The position numbers and the translations under genes are program-made. From assembly GCA_945883825.1 (NCBI GenBank), contig CAMCYF010000010.1, positions 1-64,000 on the forward strand: a stretch of 64,000 nt of DNA, read 5' to 3'. A model generated the notes under the pieces. It saw only the letters and a program-made list of their open reading frames with translations. It was not told the DNA's origin and ran no database searches. How positions within the stretch are numbered: the stretch's first letter is position 1; each line of letters begins with the position of its first letter. Source of the stretch: Chitinophaga pinensis. Lineage in GTDB: Bacteria > Bacteroidota > Bacteroidia > Flavobacteriales_D > Crocinitomicaceae. Below are positions 18,945 to 50,559 of this stretch, piece by piece.

Positions 18945-21659
18945 TTAATTGCCCCATGTTTTACCTGTCAAATAAAAATGCTCCAATATAAAATTTAGGT
19001 CGTTATTTAGTTCTTCTTTAACAGTCAGTCCAAAGTAAAATGTCGCCCTTGATAAACCAACATATAGATATTTTAGAACCAAGTCAGTAGATAAGTTTTG
19101 GCTTTGAAGTTCGTCAAGATTATGGAAGAAAACAGCTTCAAATTCCAAACCTTTTATTTTGTCAATGGAAAATATTCTAACTGTGTTTTTGTCACCCAAA
19201 ACTTCGCCATTTCTGCATGCTTTAACAAGGATACCAACATCTGATAATGTATCAAGATTACCAAGTTGATTGGCGAACTCTTCAAGTTGACTTTCGTTAG
19301 GTAAGAAAATTGCGATTGAAGGAATCGAAGAACCATAAGCTTTGTAAATTTCAATTATTCTTTTAGCTATCCAATCAAGTTTATGATCGTCATCGTCAGA
19401 GACAAGAATTAATGGTTTAGGTTCAGCTTCGTCTTTTTCAATATAGGATTTATAATTAGCCTTATTGCCTGTTGATTTTTCATAAATGGATTGAGCTAAT
19501 GAAAGTAAAGTAGGACTTTGACGATAAGATACTTCCAAATCTTTTATTTCTGTACCCGAAACAACACTTGAAAAGTCGTTCCAAGAAGTCAAACCGTCAT
19601 TGGTCATTCTTTGCATAATATCACCTGATAGAGTCAAAGACGATAATTGAGGATGTCTAAAACTGTTTATTGCTAAAAGGTCAATCAAAGAAAAGTCTGT
19701 TGCTTCATCAATACCAATAACTGGTTTACAATGATTTTTATATGCCATTACATATGGGTGATTTATGCTGTTGAAATGTCTTTGAAAACCTTTTGACAAG
19801 CTGAAACAAACATTATTTGTAAAATGGAGAAGAAGAGCTTGTTCATCGGAATGTATTCTGCTATTCTTGTCTTTTTTTACCAATTCATTCAAAATTTCCA
19901 AATCCCAATTCTTGTTATTGATAGCTAATTGGTCACGTCTGTGTTTTTTGTAAGACATCGGTATTTCTCTCAAAACATTAGCTAAAACACCTTTGATTAA
20001 TCTTTCAAAGAATTTTTTAAAGAATGCTGTTTGACCAATTTGTTCATATTCGTTTTGTATCTCAATTTCAGGAATTAGCTTAAATAGTTCAAGGTCACGC
20101 TTACTGAATTTAGTGTTTTTATCAAATTTTTTCAAAGCTTGCTTTCGACAAAGAGATTTCAACTTAGTAAAAAGTTCTTGTTCGAAATCAAAAAATGTTT
20201 GTACTTCTTTTTCTTCAAAATATTCCAACTCTATTTCTGAATCATCGTCATCATTATCGTCTACTTCTTCTGTATCTTGGATGGTATTCTTCCACTGATT
20301 TAAAATATTAGAAAGTGAGGAAGCCCTTTCTGAATCTTTTGTAATTATTACTTGAATCCTTCCTGCGACTTGTTTGATAAGTTTAGAATATTCTTCCGCG
20401 ATTTTATCCGATTCAACTTGGTATGTTTCGTTAAGATTTAAGAATAGTCGGATTAATTCATCAATATTTTTGATATTCTTTTTGTCATTTAGATATTTTT
20501 TGATTGATAAGCCTGTATTCTTCCATTTGAATGGCGATACATCTATTTCGGTAACCTTATTTAGCTTATCCTTTTGAAAGTCTATATAAAATTTATTTAG
20601 CCCTGAAACAATCTCTTGAATATTCTTAGGCTTATTTACAAAAAGGCTTTTTCCATTTGACTTATTATAAATCAAGAAAGGTCTTTTTGTTGCTGTATCA
20701 ACAAGCTGATAGGCTTTTACAAGTTCATTTTTATGAGAGCCCCAAACCTTAACTCTTTCAGTGTCTGCTGTCAGTTCTTCCATTTTCATACTGTTCCGAA
20801 GGAAAAGTGCAAGCAATTCATTTGGAGAATAAAAAATCCAACTTGTATTTTGATTAAACAGAATGTCTTTCTGGCTTTGATTTAAGGATGTGTATTCTTC
20901 AATTGAGGGTGAAATAAGAAACTTAATTCTTTGAATAAGAGAAGTTGTTTTACCTGTCCCTGGGCCACCGTTTATAATTAGTGAGCCGTCAAATATTTTA
21001 GAACGTTTAATTGATTCTTGAATAGGGTCAAGAATTGGTTGATATCGTAATTCTGCATATTTCCTGATGAAGCCTTGGGCTTTATTAAGATATGTTTTCA
21101 TTTCTGCTTCTTTGTCGGCAATACGCTGAATTAATTGTTGAGCTTCTTGGTCTGTCGCATGTTCTAATTTTTCTTTATCATTTTCTATCTCAACTTGATA
21201 GAATAGAATTTTTGAGATGTTCTGGAATGAATGAGTTCTGCTGTCACCCGCAAGTTTGATTAGTATGTCGTTAGCATAAACTTCATGATCAATGTTCGGA
21301 GTATAGCTTGCGCGGTTGAATATTTCAATTGTAATTTCTCCTTGAGGCGTTTGATATTTGTGTTTGCCTTCGTGGAATTGAATCAATAATCCACCTAATT
21401 TAGAATCTCTGGGAACAGGGAATCCGTCACCTTTGTATGTTGTTGCTTCTGAAAAGCCAGTTTCAGGAACTATATTTCCGTGAAGGTCTTTTTGAAATTG
21501 AACTACTGTAGCTTGCTTGTTAATAAGCCAAAACTTTTGTTCTTCTTTGTGATACAATGTCATTGAACGACCAACTGCGTTGTTTGTCGCCAATACAGAA
21601 AATTCCAAATCTCTGTGACGTTTTATGCTATTCGCAATGTCTTCAATTTTTTCCTTCAT
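18945..21659 (-). CDS. UvrD/HelD-like superfamily 1 helicase
   Basis: Walker A GSLIINGGPGTGKTTSLIQRIKFL; Walker B-like VIGIDEATDFSLIDL; LEVSYRQSPTLLSLAQ; IDKIKGLEFEAVFFHN; YVGLSRA. Confidence 0.82.
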   Translation of the reverse strand: MKEKIEDIANSIKRHRDLEFSVLATNNAVGRSMTLYHKEEQKFWLINKQATVVQFQKDLHGNIVPETGFSEATTYKGDGFPVPRDSKLGGLLIQFHEGKHKYQTPQGEITIEIFNRASYTPNIDHEVYANDILIKLAGDSRTHSFQNISKILFYQVEIENDKEKLEHATDQEAQQLIQRIADKEAEMKTYLNKAQGFIRKYAELRYQPILDPIQESIKRSKIFDGSLIINGGPGTGKTTSLIQRIKFLISPSIEEYTSLNQSQKDILFNQNTSWIFYSPNELLALFLRNSMKMEELTADTERVKVWGSHKNELVKAYQLVDTATKRPFLIYNKSNGKSLFVNKPKNIQEIVSGLNKFYIDFQKDKLNKVTEIDVSPFKWKNTGLSIKKYLNDKKNIKNIDELIRLFLNLNETYQVESDKIAEEYSKLIKQVAGRIQVIITKDSERASSLSNILNQWKNTIQDTEEVDDNDDDDSEIELEYFEEKEVQTFFDFEQELFTKLKSLCRKQALKKFDKNTKFSKRDLELFKLIPEIEIQNEYEQIGQTAFFKKFFERLIKGVLANVLREIPMSYKKHRRDQLAINNKNWDLEILNELVKKDKNSRIHSDEQALLLHFTNNVCFSLSKGFQRHFNSINHPYVMAYKNHCKPVIGIDEATDFSLIDLLAINSFRHPQLSSLTLSGDIMQRMTNDGLTSWNDFSSVVSGTEIKDLEVSYRQSPTLLSLAQSIYEKSTGNKANYKSYIEKDEAEPKPLILVSDDDDHKLDWIAKRIIEIYKAYGSSIPSIAIFLPNESQLEEFANQLGNLDTLSDVGILVKACRNGEVLGDKNTVRIFSIDKIKGLEFEAVFFHNLDELQSQNLSTDLVLKYLYVGLSRATFYFGLTVKEELNNDLNFILEHFYLTGKTWGN

Positions 21660-26908: not shown

Positions 26909-27864
26909 ATCATCAACTCCGAAGCAACTGCATATGATACATTTACAGTTACGGCATTACCAAACTGTTTGTATGCCTGTGTATCTGAAACTTCTTGAAT
27001 CCAATCATCGGGAAATCCTTGTAGTTTTCTACATTCATTAGGTGTTAACTTCCTAATTGGTATTCTGTTTTCATCAATAAATTCTGCCCAACTTTCTAAA
27101 TCTGTGAAATAATTATCTTGACTGGCTCGATGCATTTTGTGCATTGTAGCTGTTAATGGTTTAGAAATTGGTAAGTCAATTGTTGGTTTTACTTGGTATC
27201 CTTTTGTGCCATATCCTAGAATTGTTTTTTCCAATTTTTTTGAAAGAAAGTATTTTTTGTCTACGTGTTTGTCTAAAATGCTTTGAGTGTCCCCATTTAA
27301 TGTTTGTTTTTGGGGGAACGAAAAATCGGATGTCGGGAAATTTGTTCGATTTAGAGCAATTAAAAATACACGATTTCTTCTTTGAGGTACTCCGTAATCT
27401 TGACTATTTAAAACTTGATAAAAGCAATTATATCCGATCTCGTCTAATTCCTTCAGTATTTGATTGAATGTTGCACCTTTATTGTGGTTAATGATGTTTT
27501 TTACATTTTCAAGTACTACTACTTTAGTGTTTTTTTTTAATAAAATGTCTTTTATCTCAAAAAATAAGGTCCCTCTGCTTTCGTCTTCAAATCCTTTTAA
27601 TTTTCCGAGAGTACTAAATGGTTGACAAGGAAATCCCCCAATTAATACATCATGATCCGGGACATTTCCTTTAACGTCTCTGATATCTCCAAGTACTATA
27701 TTTTGATTTATATTTCTCTTGTAAGTTTCAACTGCATATTTATCAAAGTCATTGGCCCAAATGACGTCAAATCCCGCGTAGTCAAATCCTAAGTCCATTC
27801 CTCCAATTCCAGCAAATAAACTGACCACTTTATATTTTTTTTTCTTGATATTTTTTCGTTCCAC
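26884..27864 (-). CDS. DNA cytosine-5 methyltransferase
   Basis: VVSLFAGIGGMDLGFDYAGFDVIWANDFD, IGGFPCQPFSTLGK, VLENVKN, PQRRNRVFLIAL, QFGNAVTV. Confidence 0.95.
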   Translation of the reverse strand: MERKNIKKKKYKVVSLFAGIGGMDLGFDYAGFDVIWANDFDKYAVETYKRNINQNIVLGDIRDVKGNVPDHDVLIGGFPCQPFSTLGKLKGFEDESRGTLFFEIKDILLKKNTKVVVLENVKNIINHNKGATFNQILKELDEIGYNCFYQVLNSQDYGVPQRRNRVFLIALNRTNFPTSDFSFPQKQTLNGDTQSILDKHVDKKYFLSKKLEKTILGYGTKGYQVKPTIDLPISKPLTATMHKMHRASQDNYFTDLESWAEFIDENRIPIRKLTPNECRKLQGFPDDWIQEVSDTQAYKQFGNAVTVNVSYAVASELMMCMKTYMK

Positions 27865-29101
27865 CTTTATATATATTTAATAGAATACTAATTAAAACAT
27901 CTACAACAATTGAATTACCCGCTTGCTTATATGCTTGAGCTTTGGAAACTATGATTTTATAATCATCATCAAAGCCCATCAGGCGATGAACTTCTCGAAC
28001 TGTTAGTGCTCTTACTCTTTCATTGGTTGTTACGTAATTATTGACACTAGATCGATGTGAATTACCCATTGAGGACAGTAATGCACGAGCAATAGGCAAG
28101 TCTATTTTTGCATTGTGATGCATGAAGTTTTTAGTGCCTGGGGACAAACAATATTTCAATAATTTTGGAGATAAATAATATCTTTCTTCTACTATACCTA
28201 CTCTTTTATCTATGATTTTTAATTTTCCATTTACGGATAGTAAAGATCCTTGGGCTGTTGTATCTTCCAAAAAATCTTGCATAGAAAAATTCAATTCAGT
28301 AGTCTCAGGAAATCTAAATTTTATATTTTCATCTGAGTCACGAAAGCCGACAACAAAAAGCCTACGGCGACTTTGTGGAATACCATAATCTTTTGCATTT
28401 AGTATGTCCCATTTATAATGATAGCCCAATTCATCAAAAACATTACACATTGTATTCCACGTTCGTTTATTGTCATGACTTAATACACCATGTACATTTT
28501 CATAAATAAAAATCTTCGGCTTAATTTCCTTTATTAATCTTACATAGTCATAAAACAATGTTCCTCGTGTGTCTTCAAAACCGCCTCTGGAGCCGGCAAT
28601 TGAAAAACTCTGACAAGGACTTCCGCCTACAAATAAATCAATTTTATTTTCAAAATCCGTCCCATCTAACAATTTGATATCTTCAAAAAAGTGATCCTCA
28701 GATATTTTGTAATTTGCTAAATATGATTCTTTTACAAAATTCTTTTGCTTTGAATTTGTTTTGTATAAATCATCAACGTATTTTTTCTTTGATTCGGTAT
28801 TTTTTAATTTTCTAACATTTTGGAGTTCAATATCATAGTCGCAATTTATTGTTCTTCCTCCATTATCGCAAGCAAATGCAATTTCATGATCAATTCCTAA
28901 ACGAAGTATTGCTTGTTCAATTGCACCTATACCACTAAAACAAGTAGCTAAAACAATTTTATTTTTATTATTCATAAACACTGCTGTCTTAAACGGTTTA
29001 CAAGTATAGTAAATTTTGTTGATTTTATTGACTTCAACCGTTGTGAAAATTCTTTTTTTTGATTTACAAGTTAATGAAATTGATCCAATAGAAGAAAACA
29101 C
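27830..29101 (-). CDS. DNA cytosine-5 methyltransferase (second copy; translation may start at an internal ATG near 28976)
   Basis: VLATCFSGIGAIEQAILRLG, VGGSPCQSFSIAGSRGGFEDTRGTLFYDY, IYENVHG, PQSRRRLFVVGF, QAGNSIVVDV. Confidence 0.93.
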   Translation of the reverse strand: MFSSIGSISLTCKSKKRIFTTVEVNKINKIYYTCKPFKTAVFMNNKNKIVLATCFSGIGAIEQAILRLGIDHEIAFACDNGGRTINCDYDIELQNVRKLKNTESKKKYVDDLYKTNSKQKNFVKESYLANYKISEDHFFEDIKLLDGTDFENKIDLFVGGSPCQSFSIAGSRGGFEDTRGTLFYDYVRLIKEIKPKIFIYENVHGVLSHDNKRTWNTMCNVFDELGYHYKWDILNAKDYGIPQSRRRLFVVGFRDSDENIKFRFPETTELNFSMQDFLEDTTAQGSLLSVNGKLKIIDKRVGIVEERYYLSPKLLKYCLSPGTKNFMHHNAKIDLPIARALLSSMGNSHRSSVNNYVTTNERVRALTVREVHRLMGFDDDYKIIVSKAQAYKQAGNSIVVDVLISILLNIYKGGTKKYQEKKI

Positions 29102-34038: not shown

Positions 34039-35508
34039 TTATCTTTTTATAATTCTATTAATTCCTAACACTTGTTGGTCTTGAATAATTCGAATAAAAT
34101 AAGTACCTGCATATAAGTGACTTAAATCCAATAATGCACTCTCAGATAGAGTTTTGCTGAAAAGGATTTTACCGGATAAATCTAGAATCTCAACTTGATT
34201 ATTTTCAAAGTTTTTTGGAACTTGAATGGTAACAAAATCGTTTGTAGGATTCGGATATATTTTAATTTCAGAATTATTAAACTCTCCAATATTAGCCGAA
34301 TTTTCATAAATCACTTCAAATACAAAATTCTTGGTTGTTATGCCAACAGGTGTTCCATTGTCGGTAGCTGTTAGACTGACATGATAAATACCTGGTGTTA
34401 CGCTTGTAGCATTAAACGATGCTTGAATTTCATAATATTGATCACTAATCGGAGTCATGCTATAGCTGAATGCCCCTGCAGGTGCATCTGAATTAGTTGA
34501 GATTTGAATGTTTTGTCCAATTTCCGGCGTCATAATTCCAATAATGAAATCACTTGAATTCATGCTTTTTAGTAGGGTGTCTCCTGTTAGTACATTTATC
34601 GTATCACAAAGAGCACTACTAATTAATAATGGAGGGGTGTTTGTTGCAGAGATTCCAGCAACATTAAAATAAATCTCTTGGCCGTCGAGAAAATCTACGC
34701 CATCAAAATTATTTGTTGGACCATCAAATGATGTACCTGATTGTACAAATTGTCCCACTTGAAAATAATCGGTTCCATTTCCAACGTTTACTCCAACTGT
34801 TGCAGGAGTTCCGCCAAATCCTCCAGATCCACTGGAAGCATCACCGGTTGTCCATTGCATGTCTTCATAACAAAAAGAAACATTTCCTCCCGCTGAAACT
34901 AAAGAGTCTGAACCGTTTGAAATGATCAATTGAAAAGTAGAAACGAGGTCATTGTGCATGTTAAAATAGCCAACTTGATTCCAATTGATGATTAAGGCAG
35001 TTGGTGTTACCTTGTACCAAACATTTCCTCCATTTCCAAGTAAATTCCCTAAAGTATCAATTCCGCCACGTGTATCCACATCACCCCAGAATGGAGCAAT
35101 CATATTATAAGAAGAATCAGGGAAAGAGTTTGAAGTCCATGTAATATAAGGTGAAACAAATGAAATATTCCCGTTGTTGTTGATGTAAACTGAATTGTAT
35201 TGATTTCCGTAAAAATCAAACGTAAAAGGAAGATTTATTAATCCGGATGAACCATCATCATTGGGTAACATAGCCAAAGAAAAAGTTGAATCCAACGGAA
35301 CAATACAATCACAAGTACCATTTTTTTCTATTCCTCCATTATATTTGATGTTGGAAGGAAAAGAAAGATCAGAAAAACTATATTGCGTGTTTGGATCAAT
35401 TAAGCCTGCTTGTTTCATTTCTTGGTATTCTACCTGGGTTACAGTAACTGAGTTTTGACCGTATGCAACTGATGCAAAAAACAATACAATAGATAGGATT
35501 TTTTTCAT
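34039..35508 (-). CDS. Secreted nidogen-like domain protein with T9SS C-terminal sorting domain
   Basis: LPFTFDFYGNQYNSVYINNNGNISF...NMIAPFWGDVDTRG; C-term IKIYPNPTNDFVTIQVPK...YAGTYFIRIIQDQQVLGINRIIKR. Confidence 0.85.
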   Translation of the reverse strand: MKKILSIVLFFASVAYGQNSVTVTQVEYQEMKQAGLIDPNTQYSFSDLSFPSNIKYNGGIEKNGTCDCIVPLDSTFSLAMLPNDDGSSGLINLPFTFDFYGNQYNSVYINNNGNISFVSPYITWTSNSFPDSSYNMIAPFWGDVDTRGGIDTLGNLLGNGGNVWYKVTPTALIINWNQVGYFNMHNDLVSTFQLIISNGSDSLVSAGGNVSFCYEDMQWTTGDASSGSGGFGGTPATVGVNVGNGTDYFQVGQFVQSGTSFDGPTNNFDGVDFLDGQEIYFNVAGISATNTPPLLISSALCDTINVLTGDTLLKSMNSSDFIIGIMTPEIGQNIQISTNSDAPAGAFSYSMTPISDQYYEIQASFNATSVTPGIYHVSLTATDNGTPVGITTKNFVFEVIYENSANIGEFNNSEIKIYPNPTNDFVTIQVPKNFENNQVEILDLSGKILFSKTLSESALLDLSHLYAGTYFIRIIQDQQVLGINRIIKR

Positions 35509-38047: not shown

Positions 38048-39790
38048 ATGAATAAGCATCAAAAAATTCTTTTAACATTATTCGCTAGGCATCCAGATTA
38101 CCTACTTAGGTTGTTTTTCACATATTATCCACTTTCAAATGAACAAATAGTAAAATTTAAAGGGGAAATTAAATGGGGGCATTTGTCTTCGAACTCAGTA
38201 AGAATATGGGATCAATCTTTTATAGAAAAATTTGCAGATAAATTGAATTGGGATGCATTATCTGCTAATCCTTCGCTACCTTGGTGTATTTCTTTTTTAA
38301 AAGCATTTCCTGATAGATTTAATGGATTCATTCAAAGTTCAAATCCATCATTGCCTTGGTCATATGATTTTATCACGAAATACGAGCAATTTTGGAATTT
38401 TCACGCTCTTACTTTCAATAAGGGAATAACTTGGACTCAAGAACTTATATTGCACCCAAAAATCGTAGATAAAAATCTTTCAGAAGTGAACGGTGAAAAC
38501 CTTTGGACGGAAGAATTTTTAATTCAAAATGCTAAAATACTTCCTTGGGAGTTTTTATGTGCTAATCGGTATATTAAGTGGTCAGAAAAATTAATAGATA
38601 CCTTAACACCTTTTTGGAAAAAAGCAGAGAAAAAAACCATTGAGTATACGGTTTCACCTTGGAAAGGCCTTAGTTCAAACCCCTTAGTTCCATGGACAAC
38701 GAAATTGATCAAAAAATATCAAAAGTCTTTTTTTAGACCATATGGAGTAAATTGGAATGAATTAAGTAGAAATTCAAATTTGCCTTGGCAAGAGGAGGGA
38801 CTGTTAGAACTATTCAAAAATAAATGGAATTGGGAACTACTTTCTGTAAACAAAGGAATTAGTTACACAGAAGAGCAAATTGAAAAATACAAAGACTTAT
38901 TTACTTGGGATTCAGGTAGTCGAAGCAATCAAAATATTTCATCTAACACTAATCTTCCTTGGAGCGTCGAATTTATTAAAAAGTACGAGCAGAAATGGAA
39001 TTGGTGGACTTTATCTCAAAATCTTGGCATAAACTGGACAGAAGAAATGATTTCCGAATTTGAAGAAAAAATTATTTGGCAGTCAATGGCACATAATCTC
39101 AATCTACCATGGTCTTTTGATTTTATATTAAAGCATGAAGAAAAGCTGTTCAAAAGTTGGGCAATAACAAATAGTGAATTTGATTTCCACATATGGAATG
39201 AAGTATTTAAACCAATAATTACAGATGATCTCGCCAAACAGATTTTGTATAATTCATCCAATCCATTTCAAGCAATCAAAAGTTATATACCAGAAGTTGA
39301 TAATGCTAATATTGCTCACAAGAACCTTGAAATACTGACCAATTTAATTTTAAAAATAGATTCGCAAACCAATCCATACATTATTAATTTAACTAAAATT
39401 GATTTGTTTCTCTCTTCCATTCAAACGGCAATGACACAAATTCTGATGGTAGATGAAAACGAGTTAAAAATTGATCTAAATTTATTAACTGAGTTACACC
39501 AAGAATCCGATGAGTCAACAAAACATCATCTCAACGCTCTTTGCTCCCAGGTTTACGACGAAATAAGGGTGCTTTTTGTAGAATATGGAATCCAAAAAAT
39601 AGCACAAGAAGTAGTTTTGAAACAAAATGAAATGAACGAAAATTATATGGAATTTTCACGACAAGGTGGACATCTCTCTCAAGATTATTCATTCCTTCAT
39701 TCTTTCATAAGAAAGTATGGCAAAAGACATCTTGAGTTAGCTAGGTTATGGGTTCTTTTGGAAAAGATGCAACTTAATAAATTAACATAA
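38048..39790 (+). CDS. Trp-rich repeat protein, 580 aa (WNWxxLSxN..xxWTxExI units)
   Basis: About 12-13 repeats such as KWNWELLSVNKGISYTEEQIEKYKDL, LPWSVEFIKKYEQKWNWWTLSQNLGINWTEEMI. Confidence 0.75.
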   Translation: MNKHQKILLTLFARHPDYLLRLFFTYYPLSNEQIVKFKGEIKWGHLSSNSVRIWDQSFIEKFADKLNWDALSANPSLPWCISFLKAFPDRFNGFIQSSNPSLPWSYDFITKYEQFWNFHALTFNKGITWTQELILHPKIVDKNLSEVNGENLWTEEFLIQNAKILPWEFLCANRYIKWSEKLIDTLTPFWKKAEKKTIEYTVSPWKGLSSNPLVPWTTKLIKKYQKSFFRPYGVNWNELSRNSNLPWQEEGLLELFKNKWNWELLSVNKGISYTEEQIEKYKDLFTWDSGSRSNQNISSNTNLPWSVEFIKKYEQKWNWWTLSQNLGINWTEEMISEFEEKIIWQSMAHNLNLPWSFDFILKHEEKLFKSWAITNSEFDFHIWNEVFKPIITDDLAKQILYNSSNPFQAIKSYIPEVDNANIAHKNLEILTNLILKIDSQTNPYIINLTKIDLFLSSIQTAMTQILMVDENELKIDLNLLTELHQESDESTKHHLNALCSQVYDEIRVLFVEYGIQKIAQEVVLKQNEMNENYMEFSRQGGHLSQDYSFLHSFIRKYGKRHLELARLWVLLEKMQLNKLT

Positions 39791-41620: not shown

Positions 41621-42301
41621 TCACATTTTGTGAATGTTTAGAATATAGTTAAAAGCTTTTTCTAATGTTTTCTCCCCAATACCGTCATAATTAGCTAATG
41701 TAATCATTGAGTTTATTTCTCCGTTTTGAACTATCTCGGAAATTTTCCTTGCATATTGCGGTTGTATTCCAGTTTCTTCTTTGATTACTTTCTCGTCTAA
41801 TGACAACCATTTTGCTTTGAAGGATGCAAATAAATCATCTGTTGCATTTGGGTCGTAATCGTATATTTCAATGTCTATTGCACATTTATTTAAATACTCA
41901 TCCATAAGTCTTTTCACTACGTTAGTATCTAATCCTCCATTGTGTGTACCCAATAGAGGAAAAGCTATTGAAGTAATCCCTTTCATTTCGTAGGTTTCTA
42001 CAAACTTTTGTAAACCTTGTTCAATCCATTCTATTTTGCTTGGGTATTTCCAATGAAACTTAGTTGGGAAACTTAAAATCCAAGGTGCATTTTCTTGTTT
42101 TGTGTAAAGCCATAATGATCCTGTTTTTATCAATCTATTTTTGCAATGCTCTTTATACTCTAAATACATTTGTGGATATCTAAGTTTATGGACCAAGGCG
42201 ATCCCCTTGCCCATTACACCAACACAATTCACTGTATTCACAATAGTTTGACACTTACTATTAAATATATTTCCTTTAAAATGTTTAATCGCCATTTTCA
42301 A
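41621..42301 (-). CDS. DarG-like macrodomain protein (putative ADP-ribosyl hydrolase antitoxin)
   Basis: IVNTVNCVGVMGKGIALVHKLRYPQMYLEYKEHC, SFPTKFHWKYPSKIEWIEQGLQKF, IAFPLLGTHNGGLD; overlaps the end of the upstream gene. Confidence 0.88.
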   Translation of the reverse strand: MKMAIKHFKGNIFNSKCQTIVNTVNCVGVMGKGIALVHKLRYPQMYLEYKEHCKNRLIKTGSLWLYTKQENAPWILSFPTKFHWKYPSKIEWIEQGLQKFVETYEMKGITSIAFPLLGTHNGGLDTNVVKRLMDEYLNKCAIDIEIYDYDPNATDDLFASFKAKWLSLDEKVIKEETGIQPQYARKISEIVQNGEINSMITLANYDGIGEKTLEKAFNYILNIHKM

Positions 42302-45300
42302 TTATGCTTTTTAAGTGTTTATACATTTCCCAATATTTTGAGGACATCTTTATCAATCCTTCACTTTCATCAAAAACCTTGCTGCCATTATCATATTCAA
42401 ATAAATGCTCTAAGAATTTAACTCCTCCTGAATCGGTGGTATATGAAGCAACATCACACTGATAATAAATCATATAAATTGTAAAGAATGAATTTACATC
42501 TATTCCGCAAGTCTCTGACAAACTATACAGTTTATCTTTTACTTGTATTGTATTTAGTTTGTTTTGAAAATATTCTCCTAGGTAATCTTCTTCTAATAAT
42601 GCTAATACAACAATTAGTTCCTTATCAGAATAAGGTAAGTTTTTCCATAAATCATTTATTATTTGTCTGGTGTATTCATATTGATTGTCTTTATTCCCTT
42701 CTATAAACGCTCTTGTTTTTCCAATGTCGTGAAGAATTAATAAGGTTCTAAACAACTCCAACGATATTTTATTGGAATATTTGGCTATAAAATGTTTCTC
42801 AAATACATTACAAACCAAAACCGTATGAAATTCTAATATATAATGTCTTATTTTGTATGAAAACGTATCACTATATCCGTTTTTCTTAAGAAGGTTTATT
42901 GTTTCGGAAGGATTATAATTTTCATTGCTAATAGCTTCTTTCCAACGATTTGAAAAAGTTAAATTATCCGCTTTTTTATTAACCGGCCCTTTACCATATA
43001 AAAACCAATTTCTACCTGATTCATCTATAAAGTTTAAGCGTATATTTTGTTTTATGTTACCAAGAGAAATAAAAGAGTTGAAAATAATTTTGTCTTTGTC
43101 TATTTTGCTGACATCGCCCGAAAGAATTTCTATTTCTTTCGATGTTCCACTTAAAACAAAATAACCTTGACCACTAAATTCTGTTTTGATGTGTAATTCA
43201 AATTCTTCCTCTTCAATTCGAACTCTTGGATTTTCATTGTTATAGTAACTTCTGTCAACTAAAATTTTTGAGAAAATGTCTCTATTCTCTTGTCCCAATA
43301 AATTTATCAGTAATGTTCTGTCAACATCGGAAGGACAAATAATTTCAAAATCAGTTAAGTCTTCAAACGAAAATTCATCTTTAACTAAAAACTCTTGCTG
43401 AGCATAGTTTCTATATCTGTTGTAATCTTCTTTTGTCGCATATTGCTCGGGTGTATAATACAAATCATCAAATCCGAATTTATTTATCATTTTTTCTACG
43501 CTTCCAAATTGTGTTGACCCCGTTTGCATATTCCCATTACTGATACAACATTGTTTTTCATTTTTAAACAAAACGTCTTGAATTGAAAACTTGAAAAAAA
43601 TTGGAATAGGGCATTTTGGAAACCCTAAACCTCTTGCTTTCTCATACCATGATACCCAACCAAAATCACTGCTGTTATAACCATCAGTTGTGTTCTTACC
43701 TAAAAATTCATTGTAAAACTGTGTCGGTGTATGCGGTCTGAAATAAAAACGAGCGTAATCGTGAGCTTCATCTCTAAGATGAACTACGTTTCCTGCTGCA
43801 TCACTTTTAATGGTTGCTTTATTTCTGCTTTGAATTTTCCTATTTTTGATAATCTCAACAGCATTGTCTATGTGTGAAAAGTGATAAATACTTCCCTTCC
43901 ATTTTGAGTATTGTTGCTCTATTTTATTAATGAACTTAAGGTTTGAGGATTTACTTATTTCATCAGCAACATAACTACCAAGTAGTTCTTCAACTCGTTT
44001 GTTTCCTTTGAGTGCAGTCCAATTCCAATACTGTTTGAACTCTTGAATAATCTCTTTTGTGAAATTTATATTTGTATTTGCTGAAATTAAATCCCACTTT
44101 AAAAACTCTTTGAATTGGTTTAAAATCTGATTGTTCAATACCAGCTTTCCTGATTCACATATAAAACGCCAATTCCATTTTTCAGCAAAACGTTCAATAA
44201 AATCAATATCTAAAAAATTGATTTGTGAATTTTCAGTAATACTATACCAATTCCATTTTGTTTCGAATTTTACAAGTATTTCTATAGTTGGGTTTAAATT
44301 TGATTTTTGGGATAAATATTCCCAATCTAAATCAAAATCATTGGTAAGCGTTAGTATATCAATAGTTGGCAAAAATGTTTTGTGTTGTGAAACCGATTGC
44401 CAATTCCAAGGTTTTGCTTTAGTTTCCTCAATAAATTCAGTATTAAATTCAAGATTTGGGTTATTAGATAAATAATTAAAATCCCAATCTTTATCTAATA
44501 ATTGTAATATCGTATCGTTGTTAAAAGTTAAATTCTTCCTTTTTGAAATCGCTTTCCAATCCCAATCTTTATCTTTTAATTCAAGAATAAATTCGTTAGA
44601 AATTTCAACTTTTACATTCTCTGACAAAATTTGCCAATCCCATTTTTTGTCTTTTGTTGCAAGTATTAAACCACTGTCAATGTTTATATCTTTTCGTTTT
44701 GAAAGAAATTCAAATTTTATGTATAACTGGAATTGTTTTACAACCTGTTCTAAATATTTCTCCTTATCTCTCTTCTGTTTCGTCAGAAAACCTCCAAATT
44801 CAGTAAGATACTCCCAATCCCATTTTTCGCCTTTGTATTTCGTTAGGATAAACCTATTGTAAGTAACGTTCTTATTTTTTGATAAAACAACCCAATCCCA
44901 GTTCTCTGCAAATTTGGATAGATACTGATCAGTATTATTTAGCCATTCTTTGTGAGTAGCCCAACTACTTGGATTAAACTTCTGATGAATCGCATTGCTT
45001 TCGGAAAAAACACTCCAATTTATTTTTTGCTTGAATCTATAAAGCGTTCTTGTATCAGTTGGAAAATGTTTATGATTAGAAATAAAATTCCAATCCCATT
45101 CAAATACATCTAATTGAAATGTTTCTTCAACAATGGGGAATAAAATTTCAAAAGAAAATTTAGCCGTTAACTCTTTCCAAAAGTCTTTTCGTTTTTCGCT
45201 ATTTACAACCGACAAACAATCCGCAATTCTTGGAAGTTGATTGTCCATGGAAAGCTCTTTTTCTATTGTGAAAACTTCGTTTATCAGAAATTTCCAATCA

Positions 45301-47411
45301 ATGAAACGTGCTAATTCTTCTAATTTGTCTAGGATTGTTTCTTTGTCAAGTTTTCTTGTAGCAATTTCCCAATCCCATTTCTCAAACAATTCATCATCCT
45401 CAAAACTATCAAGAATTGTTTCTTCTGTAGTATTTTCTGTAATGAAACTCCAATCCCATGGGAAGTGACTATTTTCTAAAATATAGCCTTGGTTTTCTTT
45501 TTGAGTTAATGATTTCCAAAAGAGATATTGTTTATCGCTGTCTGTTCTGCTGTGAAATGCTTCTAAGTTCTTGTTCCAAAATGCAATATCAAAAGTCGAT
45601 TGTAATAAAATTCCGTCCCAAAGTAGATTATTTGAAAAAGAAAACTCACCAACAAAAGCCTTTTCAATAAATGTATTGTTGATCAAAAGTTTATTATTCT
45701 GCGATATTCCTTCCCAATTCCAAACAAAAGCAGGGTATTCTTCTAACAAACTGTAATCTGAAATGTGTTGGCTTATATTTAAAAATCCTTGCTCAGTTGA
45801 AATTCGACTATAATAATTTTGAAAAATGGTTTTATTCCATTCTACATTTTCATTTGTATCAAAACCATTAATATAATTTTTACTTTCCCATTGTATCAGA
45901 TTTTGCTGTTCAAAAAAATCAATTAGGTTTGGTGTCCAGAGATATTTTTGATGAGCCACTACAAAGTTGTCGGGCAAATGGTTTTTTAAAAGTGATTTGA
46001 ACGATTCCTCCTTCAAACATTTAGCAGTTATTTCTTCATTATTGAAGAAGCGATTTAAAACCGTGTACCAATCTAATTTACTTGCAAGTCCAGAAATGTT
46101 TTTGTGAAGAAAATTGAGATTTATTTCTTCCGAAATGAAATTCCAATTCCAGGCCTTTGAAATTAGTGTTTCAAGTTTATCTCGGTATTTGATGAAAGTA
46201 TTTTTGAAAACATCATTTTTACTTACGGTTATTTCGTGAAAATCCCAATTGAAATTCTCAATATTTTCTTCAATAAACTTATCAGATAAGTTTTTTGATA
46301 AGTAGTTCCAATCCCAATCAAAGTCTTTGAATGCAGAGTTTGAAAGTAAGGAAATTACAAATTCTGGCTCTTTGTAAGATAGTTCTTCAAAATCCCAATT
46401 GAATTTTTCAATTTGTTCTTTGATAAAGTCGTTGTCAAATCTTTTTGTTATTGTAGTCCAGTTCCAATACTCAGCATATTCTTGAATTATGGATTTTATA
46501 CTGTCAATTGATGCTTTTTCGGATATTACATTCCAAACACTTCCATCGCCATTGTTTCGAAATAACTCAAAAATAGTTTTGTTACTCCAATCAATTTTCG
46601 GATTTTCTGCAAGTTCTTTCCATATCCATAAGTCAATATACATTTCAATATCTTCGATGGTTATGGAATGTTTTTGAGCAAGAACATGATGATACATTCC
46701 AATTCTAATCAACCTACTTTTTAATTCTTTGTTTTCAGGTAAGTCAATTAAAAATATAAGGTCGGGTTTGTTTAAATTTGATTTGACAATGGAAAGTTGA
46801 AAGGGGGTTTCAGATACGTTTATTACACATTGTAAAGAAACGCTCCTGTATTTTATAGTTGGAATGCTTTCATATAGTTCAATAATTTCACCTTTGTAAA
46901 TGTCATTATCGAAAATTTGAAATTGAAGTTTTTGTTTTAATTCAGCATTTTCAATATGTGGCTTTTCAATTCGATTTTCATGAGATAACTCATTTTCAAT
47001 ATCAAATACATTCTTGAATGAAAAATCAAACATTTCGCCTATAGCTGTTTGATTCTCTAACAATTCAGTTTTGCCGAAGCAATATTTATATTTCAATTTG
47101 CTTTGCAATGCTTCTTGTCCAAATTCGGTAAGTTGAATTTTTTCTTTGTTTATTGAAACCAAACTGAATTCAGTAAGTCCATTCAAGTAGATGTTTAAAA
47201 CATCCATTTCAGCCAAGTCGTCAATGTTAAAACCTAATAAATTACTTAATTCTGAAAATACAATTAGATTTCCATTTGCATTGATGATGGAACAAAATAT
47301 TTCGTCAATTTCATTGATGTTAAAGGCTTTTCTGTACAGAATTTGGTGAGAAGTAGATTTAACTGTCCATTCAAGTGGAAATGATTCATATGTCGTTTTA
47401 GTGCTATCCAT
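42285..47411 (-). CDS. 1708-aa protein: Trp-rich repeats + DarT-like (DUF4433) ADP-ribosyltransferase + C-terminal HD domain
   Basis: About 25 WxW/WNWxxLS repeats; KGSIYHFSHIDNAVEIIKNRKIQSRN...VHLRDEAHDYARFYFRPHTPTQFYNEF...QQEFLVKDEFSFEDLTDFEI (about 43270-43890); HD motif LLILHDIGKTRAF with CDVASY (near 42730). Confidence 0.8.
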   Translation of the reverse strand: MDSTKTTYESFPLEWTVKSTSHQILYRKAFNINEIDEIFCSIINANGNLIVFSELSNLLGFNIDDLAEMDVLNIYLNGLTEFSLVSINKEKIQLTEFGQEALQSKLKYKYCFGKTELLENQTAIGEMFDFSFKNVFDIENELSHENRIEKPHIENAELKQKLQFQIFDNDIYKGEIIELYESIPTIKYRSVSLQCVINVSETPFQLSIVKSNLNKPDLIFLIDLPENKELKSRLIRIGMYHHVLAQKHSITIEDIEMYIDLWIWKELAENPKIDWSNKTIFELFRNNGDGSVWNVISEKASIDSIKSIIQEYAEYWNWTTITKRFDNDFIKEQIEKFNWDFEELSYKEPEFVISLLSNSAFKDFDWDWNYLSKNLSDKFIEENIENFNWDFHEITVSKNDVFKNTFIKYRDKLETLISKAWNWNFISEEINLNFLHKNISGLASKLDWYTVLNRFFNNEEITAKCLKEESFKSLLKNHLPDNFVVAHQKYLWTPNLIDFFEQQNLIQWESKNYINGFDTNENVEWNKTIFQNYYSRISTEQGFLNISQHISDYSLLEEYPAFVWNWEGISQNNKLLINNTFIEKAFVGEFSFSNNLLWDGILLQSTFDIAFWNKNLEAFHSRTDSDKQYLFWKSLTQKENQGYILENSHFPWDWSFITENTTEETILDSFEDDELFEKWDWEIATRKLDKETILDKLEELARFIDWKFLINEVFTIEKELSMDNQLPRIADCLSVVNSEKRKDFWKELTAKFSFEILFPIVEETFQLDVFEWDWNFISNHKHFPTDTRTLYRFKQKINWSVFSESNAIHQKFNPSSWATHKEWLNNTDQYLSKFAENWDWVVLSKNKNVTYNRFILTKYKGEKWDWEYLTEFGGFLTKQKRDKEKYLEQVVKQFQLYIKFEFLSKRKDINIDSGLILATKDKKWDWQILSENVKVEISNEFILELKDKDWDWKAISKRKNLTFNNDTILQLLDKDWDFNYLSNNPNLEFNTEFIEETKAKPWNWQSVSQHKTFLPTIDILTLTNDFDLDWEYLSQKSNLNPTIEILVKFETKWNWYSITENSQINFLDIDFIERFAEKWNWRFICESGKLVLNNQILNQFKEFLKWDLISANTNINFTKEIIQEFKQYWNWTALKGNKRVEELLGSYVADEISKSSNLKFINKIEQQYSKWKGSIYHFSHIDNAVEIIKNRKIQSRNKATIKSDAAGNVVHLRDEAHDYARFYFRPHTPTQFYNEFLGKNTTDGYNSSDFGWVSWYEKARGLGFPKCPIPIFFKFSIQDVLFKNEKQCCISNGNMQTGSTQFGSVEKMINKFGFDDLYYTPEQYATKEDYNRYRNYAQQEFLVKDEFSFEDLTDFEIICPSDVDRTLLINLLGQENRDIFSKILVDRSYYNNENPRVRIEEEEFELHIKTEFSGQGYFVLSGTSKEIEILSGDVSKIDKDKIIFNSFISLGNIKQNIRLNFIDESGRNWFLYGKGPVNKKADNLTFSNRWKEAISNENYNPSETINLLKKNGYSDTFSYKIRHYILEFHTVLVCNVFEKHFIAKYSNKISLELFRTLLILHDIGKTRAFIEGNKDNQYEYTRQIINDLWKNLPYSDKELIVVLALLEEDYLGEYFQNKLNTIQVKDKLYSLSETCGIDVNSFFTIYMIYYQCDVASYTTDSGGVKFLEHLFEYDNGSKVFDESEGLIKMSSKYWEMYKHLKSIIENGD

Positions 47412-50400
47412 TTTGTTCTGTTTCGTATTTTAATTCTTCTGCACTAATTATTTTTCCGTTTTGTTTAATGGTGTTAAATACGTTTTTGTAAATGGGTTTT
47501 TGACAAAAATGATCACCATTACCTACAACAATTAGCAGTCTTCTTGCTCTTGACAAGGCAACGTTTAATCGGTTTGGTGATTCTGCAAAACCTAAACTTT
47601 CTTGCTTTTGATAACCCATTTCACCGTATAATTCATAGTTAGGTTGTTGATCTTGTGAAACTGCAATTCTATTGCTCCTAACCATTGAAACAATTATTAT
47701 ATTTCTTTCCATTCCCTGAAATCTATCTACAGTACTTAACCTAACAAAATTTCTTTTGTCATTATCTTTTCCTTTCCCTTTGTATAAGTCATTATGGCTT
47801 TGTAAGAGCATTCTTTCTAAATAACTAATTTGTTTACCATAAAAGCTAATAAGTCCTATTTGTTTTTCTTCTTGAGATTGATTTGTCAACCAATTATCAA
47901 ATTCGCTTTTTCCTTCACAATTTTTAATAATGCTAAGAATGTTTTCGACTGCTTCAATTTCTCCGTAATTAACTCTTGAAGTACCTTCCTTAATTTCAGG
48001 CGTTGTAACGTTTATCCAAATAGTATGAGTTTCGGGGGTAATGAGGTTTTTGAAATTTAAACCATGATACCTAGAATCCCATTTCTCAAATGAATTATGA
48101 TAAACTTCTTCTAAAGGCAATCCACATTGCAAACCTTTTTCACCATCATTTTTATAAAACTGACTTATTACCTCATTGATGGCGGGGTGCATCCTATATT
48201 GCGTATCAAAAGTTCCCTTAATGCTTTCATCAATATCATTAAACAAACGCTCAAACTGTGATATTTCAAATTCTTTATGCGAAAGTGTCTTTGCTAATTC
48301 TTTTTCCCCTATTGAAATAAGTAAATCTTTAATTTCTTCACCGTCAATCATTGGTGGTAATTGTCTATGATCCCCTACGATAATAGATTTTTTGCCAAAT
48401 AAAACAGGTAAAGCAAGTTCAGGGGGTGTTGCTTTACTGGCTTCGTCCATTATTATTGTGTCAAACGTTATTTCTGTTTTTTCTAAGGTTGACTTCAAAG
48501 TACTAAACTCCCGTTTTATTTTTTTTAATTCATCTTCAAATAAATCATCATTGCCATTTTTCAAAACTTTAATTTGGTTACTTTTTTCTAACAATGTTTT
48601 GTAATTTGAATACTCAAAAACATTCAAATACGAACGAAAAAATGAAGTCCAATTATTTTCAGAATTTAGTTTCCCAATAGAGCTTCCAGTTGCACCAATA
48701 AGATTGACATATTCAAAGTATTTATTAACAAATAAATTCTTTGTTTCGCTATTTGGAATTTGTAAATGATTTTTCCACTTCTCTAAAGCTGAATTAATTT
48801 GTTCATGGTTTTGTATTGTTATTCTGTTAGCGATGTTGTTTATCCAATGAGAAACAGTATTAAATAAATTTCCATTACCTTTTTGCCAATCAACAATAGC
48901 TTCTATAGAATAAAAATACCCTTCTGATTCTAAATTTTCTGCTTTACCAAACCGAATTGGTTTTACAACATTGTTTTGTTGATTTTTTAATTTATCAATA
49001 GCATTATCAACTGCAAGGTTGGTTTCAGAAGTTAAAAGTATTATTTGCTTTTGTGCTTTTCTGATATGTTGCCAAATTATTTCTGCTATTGCTGTTGATT
49101 TGCCAGTGCCGGGTGGGCCTTGGATCAAAGCCAATTCTTCGGCATAAAGCGACTTGTATATAGCTTGTCTTTGTGACACGTTTAGTGATTTTGAAAAAAG
49201 ATTTTTCTCAAATTCTTGCCATTCCGAGCATGTCTTGTTTAATAAATATTCAATATTTCTAATGCTTTTAGCTTTAGAGGAATCGTATAAAAATTCTTTT
49301 GCGTTATCATTTGGAAGTTTTTCCTTGGAATTAAGTTTGAGAATTGTATCTTCCAAACGTTTTATCTTATCCTTTTCACCTTTTAAGTCTGGGAATATAG
49401 CTTTTATGGTTTCTTTAACTATGTTTTCTTTTACTTTTTCAAGTTTATCTTCATCAACTACGAAATACAATTCAGGATAATCTACCTTTATTAATTTACC
49501 TAAATAGAATTTTTCTTTTGTGTTGCCGAAATAGAAATCTTCTCTTAAAAGTTTTGAAAGTTTTTCTTCTTCTTGCTCAACTTTTAATTCAAAATTTTCT
49601 TCGCATAGATATTTTTCATAAAATGTGTCATTTATTATGTAACTAAATAATTCTGAATTAATTAAGTCTTCCAATTGATTTTGTAAACGTGCTAGAATTT
49701 CTGTTTTGCTTCCAGTTTGATAAAATTGTTGGAATATTAATTTTTCTCCATTTGCAATAAGTTTTGTTTTAAGATTTGGCATTTTTATTCCCAAGCTTTC
49801 TTGTAACTTCTGTAAACCGGAACCAAAAGAATACTCAGTTGTATAGTAATATTCAAAATGATTATTCGGAAAATAAAGTTCTAGTGTTCGTTTTAGACGA
49901 AAAATCTCAAAATTTAGATCTGATTCGTGCTTATTATAAAAATGATTGTCATAATTAAAACAAAGACAGTTTTCTTTTGGCTTCGGAAGTATAATTCCTT
50001 TACTTTCTAGTCTTTTAATTTCACGATTTAAATCTTCAGAATTTTCAAACTTAAAAATCAAACTATTCCCAATGCACAGCAATCCAAAATTTCTTTGAAA
50101 TAACTCATATATGTTTTTTTGTAAAACACCTGTAACAGTTAATGTATTATTATTTTGATATATTTCTATATTTCTATAAAACGCAGAAATAAGAGATGAA
50201 ATAGATGGGGTGTTCTGTCTTTCTATTATTCCATCCACTAAGGGATTTTCATTAAAGTCAATATAACAGATTTCTGCAAGTTCTTTTAACTTGGAAAGTT
50301 TTTCAGTTGTGATATTTGCAGTGTTTTCAATACTTGTCTGAATATATCCACTGTTAAAGTCAAAATCTTTGATATTGAAAGTTTGCGCAACCTCTTTCTT

Positions 50401-50559
50401 GAATACTTGTTTGAATATTTCTTGGTCAATAGAAAGATGCAATTTTAAACCGTCAAGAGGAATTTCTTTTGAAGTTTCAATTCCAATGGGTTTAGATTTG
50501 TGTTCTAAGATTTTGGATTGTGCTAAAATATATTTCTTCCAAACTTCCTTCTGGCTCAT
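47404..50559 (-). CDS. UPF1/DNA2-like SF1 helicase (AAA_11/AAA_12), 1051 aa
   Basis: LALIQGPPGTGKSTAIAEIIWQ, IIMDEASKATPPELALPVL, IIVGDHRQLPPMI, FDTQYRMHPAINEVISQFY, NVALSRARRLLIVVGN. Confidence 0.92.
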   Translation of the reverse strand: MSQKEVWKKYILAQSKILEHKSKPIGIETSKEIPLDGLKLHLSIDQEIFKQVFKKEVAQTFNIKDFDFNSGYIQTSIENTANITTEKLSKLKELAEICYIDFNENPLVDGIIERQNTPSISSLISAFYRNIEIYQNNNTLTVTGVLQKNIYELFQRNFGLLCIGNSLIFKFENSEDLNREIKRLESKGIILPKPKENCLCFNYDNHFYNKHESDLNFEIFRLKRTLELYFPNNHFEYYYTTEYSFGSGLQKLQESLGIKMPNLKTKLIANGEKLIFQQFYQTGSKTEILARLQNQLEDLINSELFSYIINDTFYEKYLCEENFELKVEQEEEKLSKLLREDFYFGNTKEKFYLGKLIKVDYPELYFVVDEDKLEKVKENIVKETIKAIFPDLKGEKDKIKRLEDTILKLNSKEKLPNDNAKEFLYDSSKAKSIRNIEYLLNKTCSEWQEFEKNLFSKSLNVSQRQAIYKSLYAEELALIQGPPGTGKSTAIAEIIWQHIRKAQKQIILLTSETNLAVDNAIDKLKNQQNNVVKPIRFGKAENLESEGYFYSIEAIVDWQKGNGNLFNTVSHWINNIANRITIQNHEQINSALEKWKNHLQIPNSETKNLFVNKYFEYVNLIGATGSSIGKLNSENNWTSFFRSYLNVFEYSNYKTLLEKSNQIKVLKNGNDDLFEDELKKIKREFSTLKSTLEKTEITFDTIIMDEASKATPPELALPVLFGKKSIIVGDHRQLPPMIDGEEIKDLLISIGEKELAKTLSHKEFEISQFERLFNDIDESIKGTFDTQYRMHPAINEVISQFYKNDGEKGLQCGLPLEEVYHNSFEKWDSRYHGLNFKNLITPETHTIWINVTTPEIKEGTSRVNYGEIEAVENILSIIKNCEGKSEFDNWLTNQSQEEKQIGLISFYGKQISYLERMLLQSHNDLYKGKGKDNDKRNFVRLSTVDRFQGMERNIIIVSMVRSNRIAVSQDQQPNYELYGEMGYQKQESLGFAESPNRLNVALSRARRLLIVVGNGDHFCQKPIYKNVFNTIKQNGKIISAEELKYETEQNG

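Follow-up and report, generated by a model that had tools for sequence, protein, structure and literature searches.

The question raised by this locus is what a helicase, a giant repeat protein and a macrodomain protein do together when their genes overlap end to end. The locus lies in a 64,000-nucleotide stretch from Chitinophaga pinensis (assembly GCA_945883825.1, contig CAMCYF010000010.1, positions 1 to 64,000; hereafter the window), where three open reading frames with overlapping ends occupy positions 47404-50559 (1051 aa), 42285-47411 (1708 aa) and 41621-42301 (226 aa) of the minus strand. An original prediction had read these genes as an expanded DarTG-like anti-phage system, and the genes, their coordinates and all the motifs that it named in the three proteins were recovered. 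It had passed over three parts, namely the HhH tail of the macrodomain protein, the winged-helix domain at the N-terminus of the giant protein and the relation of the helicase to MkoA. In our reading, to which we give a probability of roughly 0.68, the operon is predicted to be a Mokosh-type-I-like helicase/effector defence system with a DarT-type ADP-ribosyltransferase as effector and with the third gene as eraser or antidote. We read it as a case where the nuclease of Mokosh has been replaced by a nucleic-acid ADP-ribosyltransferase together with its eraser.

The first gene (47404-50559) encodes a superfamily 1 (SF1) helicase of the UPF1/SMUBP2 type, as had been proposed. The helicase core (about residues 451-1045, positions 47425-49209), with the Walker A motif GPPGTGKST at residue 481 and DEASKA at 705, matches Pfam AAA_11/AAA_12 (e-36/e-38) and the UPF1, SMUBP2 and DNA2 structures in the PDB. 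Among defence systems the best match is MkoA (PADLOC, 9e-92), limited to the helicase core. This relationship is also seen in a tree of 16 helicases of the window-type system together with MkoA-type, IGHMBP2-type and other SF1 helicases. The 16 form a single group (100/99) inside the MkoA-type group (98/97), beside cyanobacterial members and to the exclusion of the IGHMBP2-type and other SF1 helicases.

The second gene (42285-47411) opens with a domain (residues 1-246, positions 46674-47411; winged helix about 14-107) that resembles the N-terminal domain of MkoB. Profile comparison with hhalign gave a probability of 94.1%, an E-value of 1.3e-7 and a score of 58.6, while the controls (40 column-shuffled profiles, one reversed and two unrelated) scored at most 18.5, with probabilities below 1% overall and at most 0.2% for the shuffled ones. 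The position and the partner gene agree with this assignment, since an MkoB-type domain opens the gene directly downstream of the helicase both here and in Mokosh. The PLD domain that is listed for Mokosh types I and II (PMC10952713) gave no match in the giant protein with Pfam or PADLOC, and DarT holds the effector position. The operon shares with Mokosh type I a helicase of the MkoA clade, an overlapping partner gene directly downstream and the MkoB-type winged-helix N-terminal domain, but it differs in having a 900-residue solenoid plus DarT (and HD) as effector instead of PLD, an extra eraser gene, and no full-length MkoA or MkoB match. Close relatives of the window-type helicases pair with MkoB-PLD or PIN partners (PIN in one related pair, from Leisingera), and for this reason we regard the effector slot as swappable. 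The PADLOC MkoB model matches mostly PLD domains across the phylum and is therefore unfit for measuring how frequent Mokosh is. In the open-licence literature we found no paper on the 'PLuB system', which is the NCBIfam match of the helicase, no description of DarT with helicase, HD, sacsin, Argonaute or DUF4433, and no paper on the helicase/DarT/HD/macrodomain combination; a search of this scope is no proof of absence.

The DarT domain covers residues 1170-1385 of the giant protein (positions 43257-43904) and was detected by Pfam (PF14487, 7.2e-17 over residues 1176-1375) and PADLOC (DarT, 9e-9). An AlphaFold2 model of residues 1170-1708 has a mean predicted local distance difference test (pLDDT) value of 83.8, and the first seven PDB matches of this model in a fold search are all DarT, from 7omw (3.2e-8) through structures including 7yk3 down to 8baq (DarT1, 1.9e-3), so that the resemblance first noticed from short motifs is borne out by structure comparison. 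In a hidden Markov model alignment of a profile of 19 relatives to 7omv and 7yk3, Glu1340 in QQEFLV is aligned with the catalytic position of 7omv and is invariant in the 19 rows. This position is reportedly that of the catalytic Glu which was replaced by Ala in the crystal structures from Thermus and M. tuberculosis. No single Arg could be picked as catalytic: Arg1196 and Arg1221 are both invariant, the loop has low confidence in the model, and the Arg that aligns with R51 of Thermus DarT is conserved in only part of the relatives. The equivalog-level model of DarT is not reached by the domain (NCBIfam toxin_DarT, 13.7 bits against a cut-off of 150).

The third gene encodes a DarG-type macrodomain protein with a C-terminal HhH. 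It probably starts with the ATG at 42295 and not with the TTG at 42301, because macrodomain homologues begin with MAIKHIKGN; the gene would then span 41621-42295 and overlap the giant gene by about 11 nucleotides. The DarG-type assignment of the original prediction is well upheld by Pfam (Macro, 1.4e-14) and PADLOC (DarG, 6e-55), with PDB matches to 5m3i, 5m31 and 7omu. The Lys at the catalytic position of the DarG macrodomain (K80 in T. aquaticus) is present as Lys81 in FPTK, a motif kept in nearly all alignment rows, and a divergent macrodomain subtype retains the Lys as FAIK. The C-terminal DarT-binding domain of DarG is absent from the protein, whose tail is an HhH instead (GIGEKTLEKAF; HHH_3, 5e-5), and NCBIfam antitoxin_DarG is matched over model positions 1-151 of 338 only (181 bits against a cut-off of 250). 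DarT enzymes modify DNA bases and DarG-type macrodomains reverse the modification (PMC11543638). The likeness to DarTG2 consists in the DarT fold with Glu at the catalytic position, the macrodomain with Lys at the catalytic position and the adjacency of the genes. The window system differs from it in that DarT is the C-terminal part of a 1708-residue protein, the macrodomain carries an HhH and not a DarT-binding domain, the toxin gene precedes the eraser gene, and a helicase partner is found in most loci. A minimal pair of DarT and macrodomain-HhH genes, with a small gene upstream, was seen on an 8.6 kb plasmid of Klebsiella quasipneumoniae (L099, NZ_AP021957), the macrodomain-HhH protein being 50% identical to that of the window over 95%.

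The linkage of the three genes extends well outside this genome. A scan of 85,462 species, with patterns drawn from two of the giant DarTs, gave 59 DarT loci, of which L008-L038 are window-like and the rest mostly plain DarT-macrodomain pairs; the DarT tree places the giant DarTs in a single group (100/99). The complete set of three genes was found in at least 21 further loci (20 of L008-L038, plus L091; L017 is counted, its helicase gene being cut by a contig end), nearly all of them from Bacteroidota, together with Clostridia/Desulfosporosinus bins. Three loci (L024, L033 and L092) have a different N-terminal part and no helicase, two Hymenobacter copies have no adjacent macrodomain gene, and the remaining differences among the window-like loci are contig ends. 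In L033 (5675-11512, Ignavibacteriota) and L092 (5029-10851) DarT-HD is fused to a sacsin-type Hsp90-like ATPase, with no solenoid; the macrodomain gene is present in both, and in L092 its frame continues into HsdM-like sequence. L024 (8363-10861) has DarT fused to Sel1 repeats, followed by the macrodomain gene. In L015 (3055-11644, a Chitinophagaceae bin) several stops or frameshifts interrupt the copy but leave the macrodomain gene intact, which may reflect either a decayed toxin or sequencing errors. In an independent survey of 395 other Bacteroidota genomes 3 were positive, with open frames of 1566-1959 aa in every case, and the genomes of the same genus that were searched contained no copy.

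What we take as the best single argument for a division of labour between helicase, writer and eraser comes from Nostoc sp. C052. A BREX operon on its plasmid NZ_CP040275 contains a gene for an MkoA-type helicase, followed by one for a 531-aa protein that joins an MkoB N-terminal domain (1.6e-9) to a C-terminal DarT (Pfam, 9.2e-16), and then by one for an ADP-ribosylglycohydrolase (Pfam, 3.9e-42). The two systems thus have in common the MkoA-type helicase, the fusion of an MkoB N-terminal domain to DarT, and an ADP-ribose hydrolase as third gene. The Nostoc protein is short and lacks both solenoid and HD, its eraser is an ADP-ribosylglycohydrolase, and it stands within BREX; in the tree its DarT is far from those of Bacteroidota, on a long branch. 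From this parallel it seems that a Mokosh-type helicase, a DarT writer and an ADP-ribose eraser have been combined at least twice, with unrelated erasers.

A possible mode of action can be outlined from these parts. The helicase and the giant protein would assemble into a single complex that restrains DarT, and engagement of abnormal nucleic acid of an infecting phage by the helicase would release DarT. The enzyme could then ADP-ribosylate bases of the exposed single strand and so block phage replication or transcription, while the macrodomain-HhH protein would strip ADP-ribose from host nucleic acid and make the system tolerable; HD would be an optional accessory in erasing or end processing. 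A sensor helicase that restrains its effector and releases it on aberrant DNA is known from Hachiman (PMC12278908), and the likeness to HamAB is a works-like analogy only, as the helicase there is another one and the effector is a nuclease. A bolder version, which we put forward tentatively and judge fairly unlikely, is a reversible nucleic-acid-modification immunity in which the UPF1-like helicase, on recognising RNA or RNA:DNA structures of a phage, releases the solenoid-tethered DarT, which marks the engaged strand, the macrodomain-HhH protein (with or without HD) erasing the marks on host nucleic acid. The substrate of DarT would then possibly be RNA or R-loops rather than plain single-stranded DNA. 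Little is established about the way in which Mokosh-type helicases recognise phage or about the action of their partners. A partner enzyme with a detectable product, ADP-ribose on nucleic acid, and with an eraser means that the target of the helicase could be read as a mark, and systems of this type become testable with a known effector and antidote. The Mokosh and DarTG families would be tied together by a swappable effector slot (PLD, PIN, DarT), and also by swappable erasers (macrodomain, ADP-ribosylglycohydrolase).

The operon could alternatively be an expanded DarTG toxin-antitoxin module, as first proposed, with DarT neutralised mainly by its DarG-like neighbour and with the helicase and the repeats as add-ons. 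The DarT and DarG-type domains in adjacent overlapping genes agree with such a module, as does the small Klebsiella plasmid, where a close macrodomain-HhH relative stands beside plain DarT and no helicase. We nevertheless consider it unlikely, since DarT and helicase tree distances point to tight coevolution (r=0.905, 0/2000 permutations), whereas the macrodomain follows DarT or the helicase less closely (about 0.49, 0/2000 permutations each), and since the two Hymenobacter copies (L005 and L035) have kept helicase and DarT with no macrodomain gene next to them. What holds of the proposal are the DarT-type transferase, the DarG-type macrodomain, the SF1 helicase and the linkage of the genes beyond this genome; the Mokosh-type helicase and N-terminal domain, the missing toxin-binding domain of DarG and the NCBIfam scores below cut-off speak against the label. 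Judged from its sequence, the operon is Mokosh-like in helicase and N-terminal domain and DarTG-like in effector and eraser, and, when the complete definitions are applied, is formally a member of neither. A housekeeping function in nucleic-acid repair or quality control (DNA damage, RNA surveillance) would suit a UPF1/DNA2-like helicase, and M. tuberculosis DarTG is reported to use reversible DNA ADP-ribosylation in growth control (PMC12170906). We find this very improbable for a system with so sporadic a distribution, whose flanking genes vary from locus to locus, with integrases near some copies, one copy on a Hymenobacter plasmid and one on a predicted viral contig (L136). Defence genes are also seen as neighbours at several other loci, with prokaryotic Argonaute (pAgo; L016, L020), BrxL (L015, L028), type I restriction-modification genes (L033, L035, L037), a reverse transcriptase (L026) and Schlafen-like genes. 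Overall, our analysis indicates that the operon is probably anti-virus. Several observations weigh against the Mokosh-like interpretation. The likeness to MkoB is confined to a winged helix of about 90 residues, which is a common fold, and the full-length PADLOC MkoB models gave no match to the giant protein at E<=1, so that the link needed profiles. The Hymenobacter copies imply that an antidote is not strictly required, the defence neighbours were counted without a background rate, and the nearest flanking genes in the window include no recognised defence genes.

The HD domain (about residues 1510-1705, positions 42297-42884) had been proposed as a second effector; it would then be a nuclease or phosphohydrolase that joins DarT in a two-hit toxin. 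The motif itself was confirmed, with LHDIGK at 1560-1565 (H1561-D1562), the upstream H1529 and the downstream D1653 in a motif alignment of 17 sequences; Pfam HD stays below its cut-off (0.15 for the window, 0.0016-0.03 in free or macrodomain-fused relatives), and a fold search with the C-terminal part gave weak matches to HD-phosphohydrolases. The kept metal motif favours an effector, and so do the separate HD-PIN_4 genes directly after the macrodomain gene in two loci (L009, 11341-12498; L020, 11624-12796; that of L014 is cut) and a second HD type (HDLGK) that takes the equivalent C-terminal place in copies from Bacteroidales (L022, L026, L032, L034, L037; Pfam HD 9e-8 in L026). However, while HD is fused to DarT in the window, L010, L011, L012, L016, L019, L033 and others, it is missing from about half of the loci and precedes the macrodomain as a fusion in L021 and L038. 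The HDLGK type is accompanied by the divergent macrodomain subtype in 4/4 loci where both are visible, which points to the eraser side; this subtype is 43-46% identical to the macrodomain of the window and is found in no other examined locus except L136, a close relative of L037. In the DarT tree the HDLGK-type loci fall in two places, and L027, which adjoins L026, has neither the HDLGK HD nor the divergent macrodomain. It looks as though HD and macrodomain are exchanged as a cassette, and HD is therefore probably tied to the eraser, as far as a few loci can indicate. A role as second effector seems rather doubtful to us, and a link of this optional, swappable module to the eraser or to end processing is more likely than a second toxin.

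Between the N-terminal domain and DarT lies the Trp-rich part of the giant protein (residues 247-1145, positions 43977-46673), a putative sensor or scaffold. The repeats noticed earlier are much more frequent than shuffling predicts. This part has 51 Trp in its 899 residues, the remaining 809 residues have 8, and there are 16 WxW motifs (2.8 expected, maximum 9) and 19 W..[LIVAF][ST] motifs (2.1 expected, maximum 7), with preferred spacings around 25-27 and 50-55. The AlphaFold2 model of residues 1-1169 (mean pLDDT 87.8) is a confident, mostly helical solenoid of short helices. This region is covered by no Pfam model, and a PDB fold search returned generic alpha-solenoids alone, with TM below 0.2 and no specific counterpart. 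This genome has just one further protein related to the giant one, a shorter Trp-repeat protein of 580 aa, which has no DarT (window 38048-39790, plus strand), and large proteins of pALWED3.6 (Acinetobacter lwoffii) and pSR116 (Salinibacter) have similar repeats. Solenoids of this family may be used with other effectors too.

Phage records contained no relative of the DarT-HD part, and viral contigs were negative when searched with the first alignment or the helicase; with a wider DarT alignment, they gave two relatives, one being the complete operon of L136, and several plain DarTs. Comparison with same-genus genomes yielded no clean empty site, as the genes upstream of the flanking map gene do not keep a common order. 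In L016 (559-2658, overlapping) and L020 (537-2636) the Argonaute (Piwi) gene is directly upstream of the helicase gene. Elsewhere in the window, a UvrD-like helicase gene (18945-21659, minus strand) and a C5 cytosine methylase gene (27830-29101, minus strand) may belong to a separate restriction or defence locus, and a Nidogen-like protein (34039-35508, minus strand) fits a Bacteroidota host by its C-terminal sorting domain for type IX secretion.

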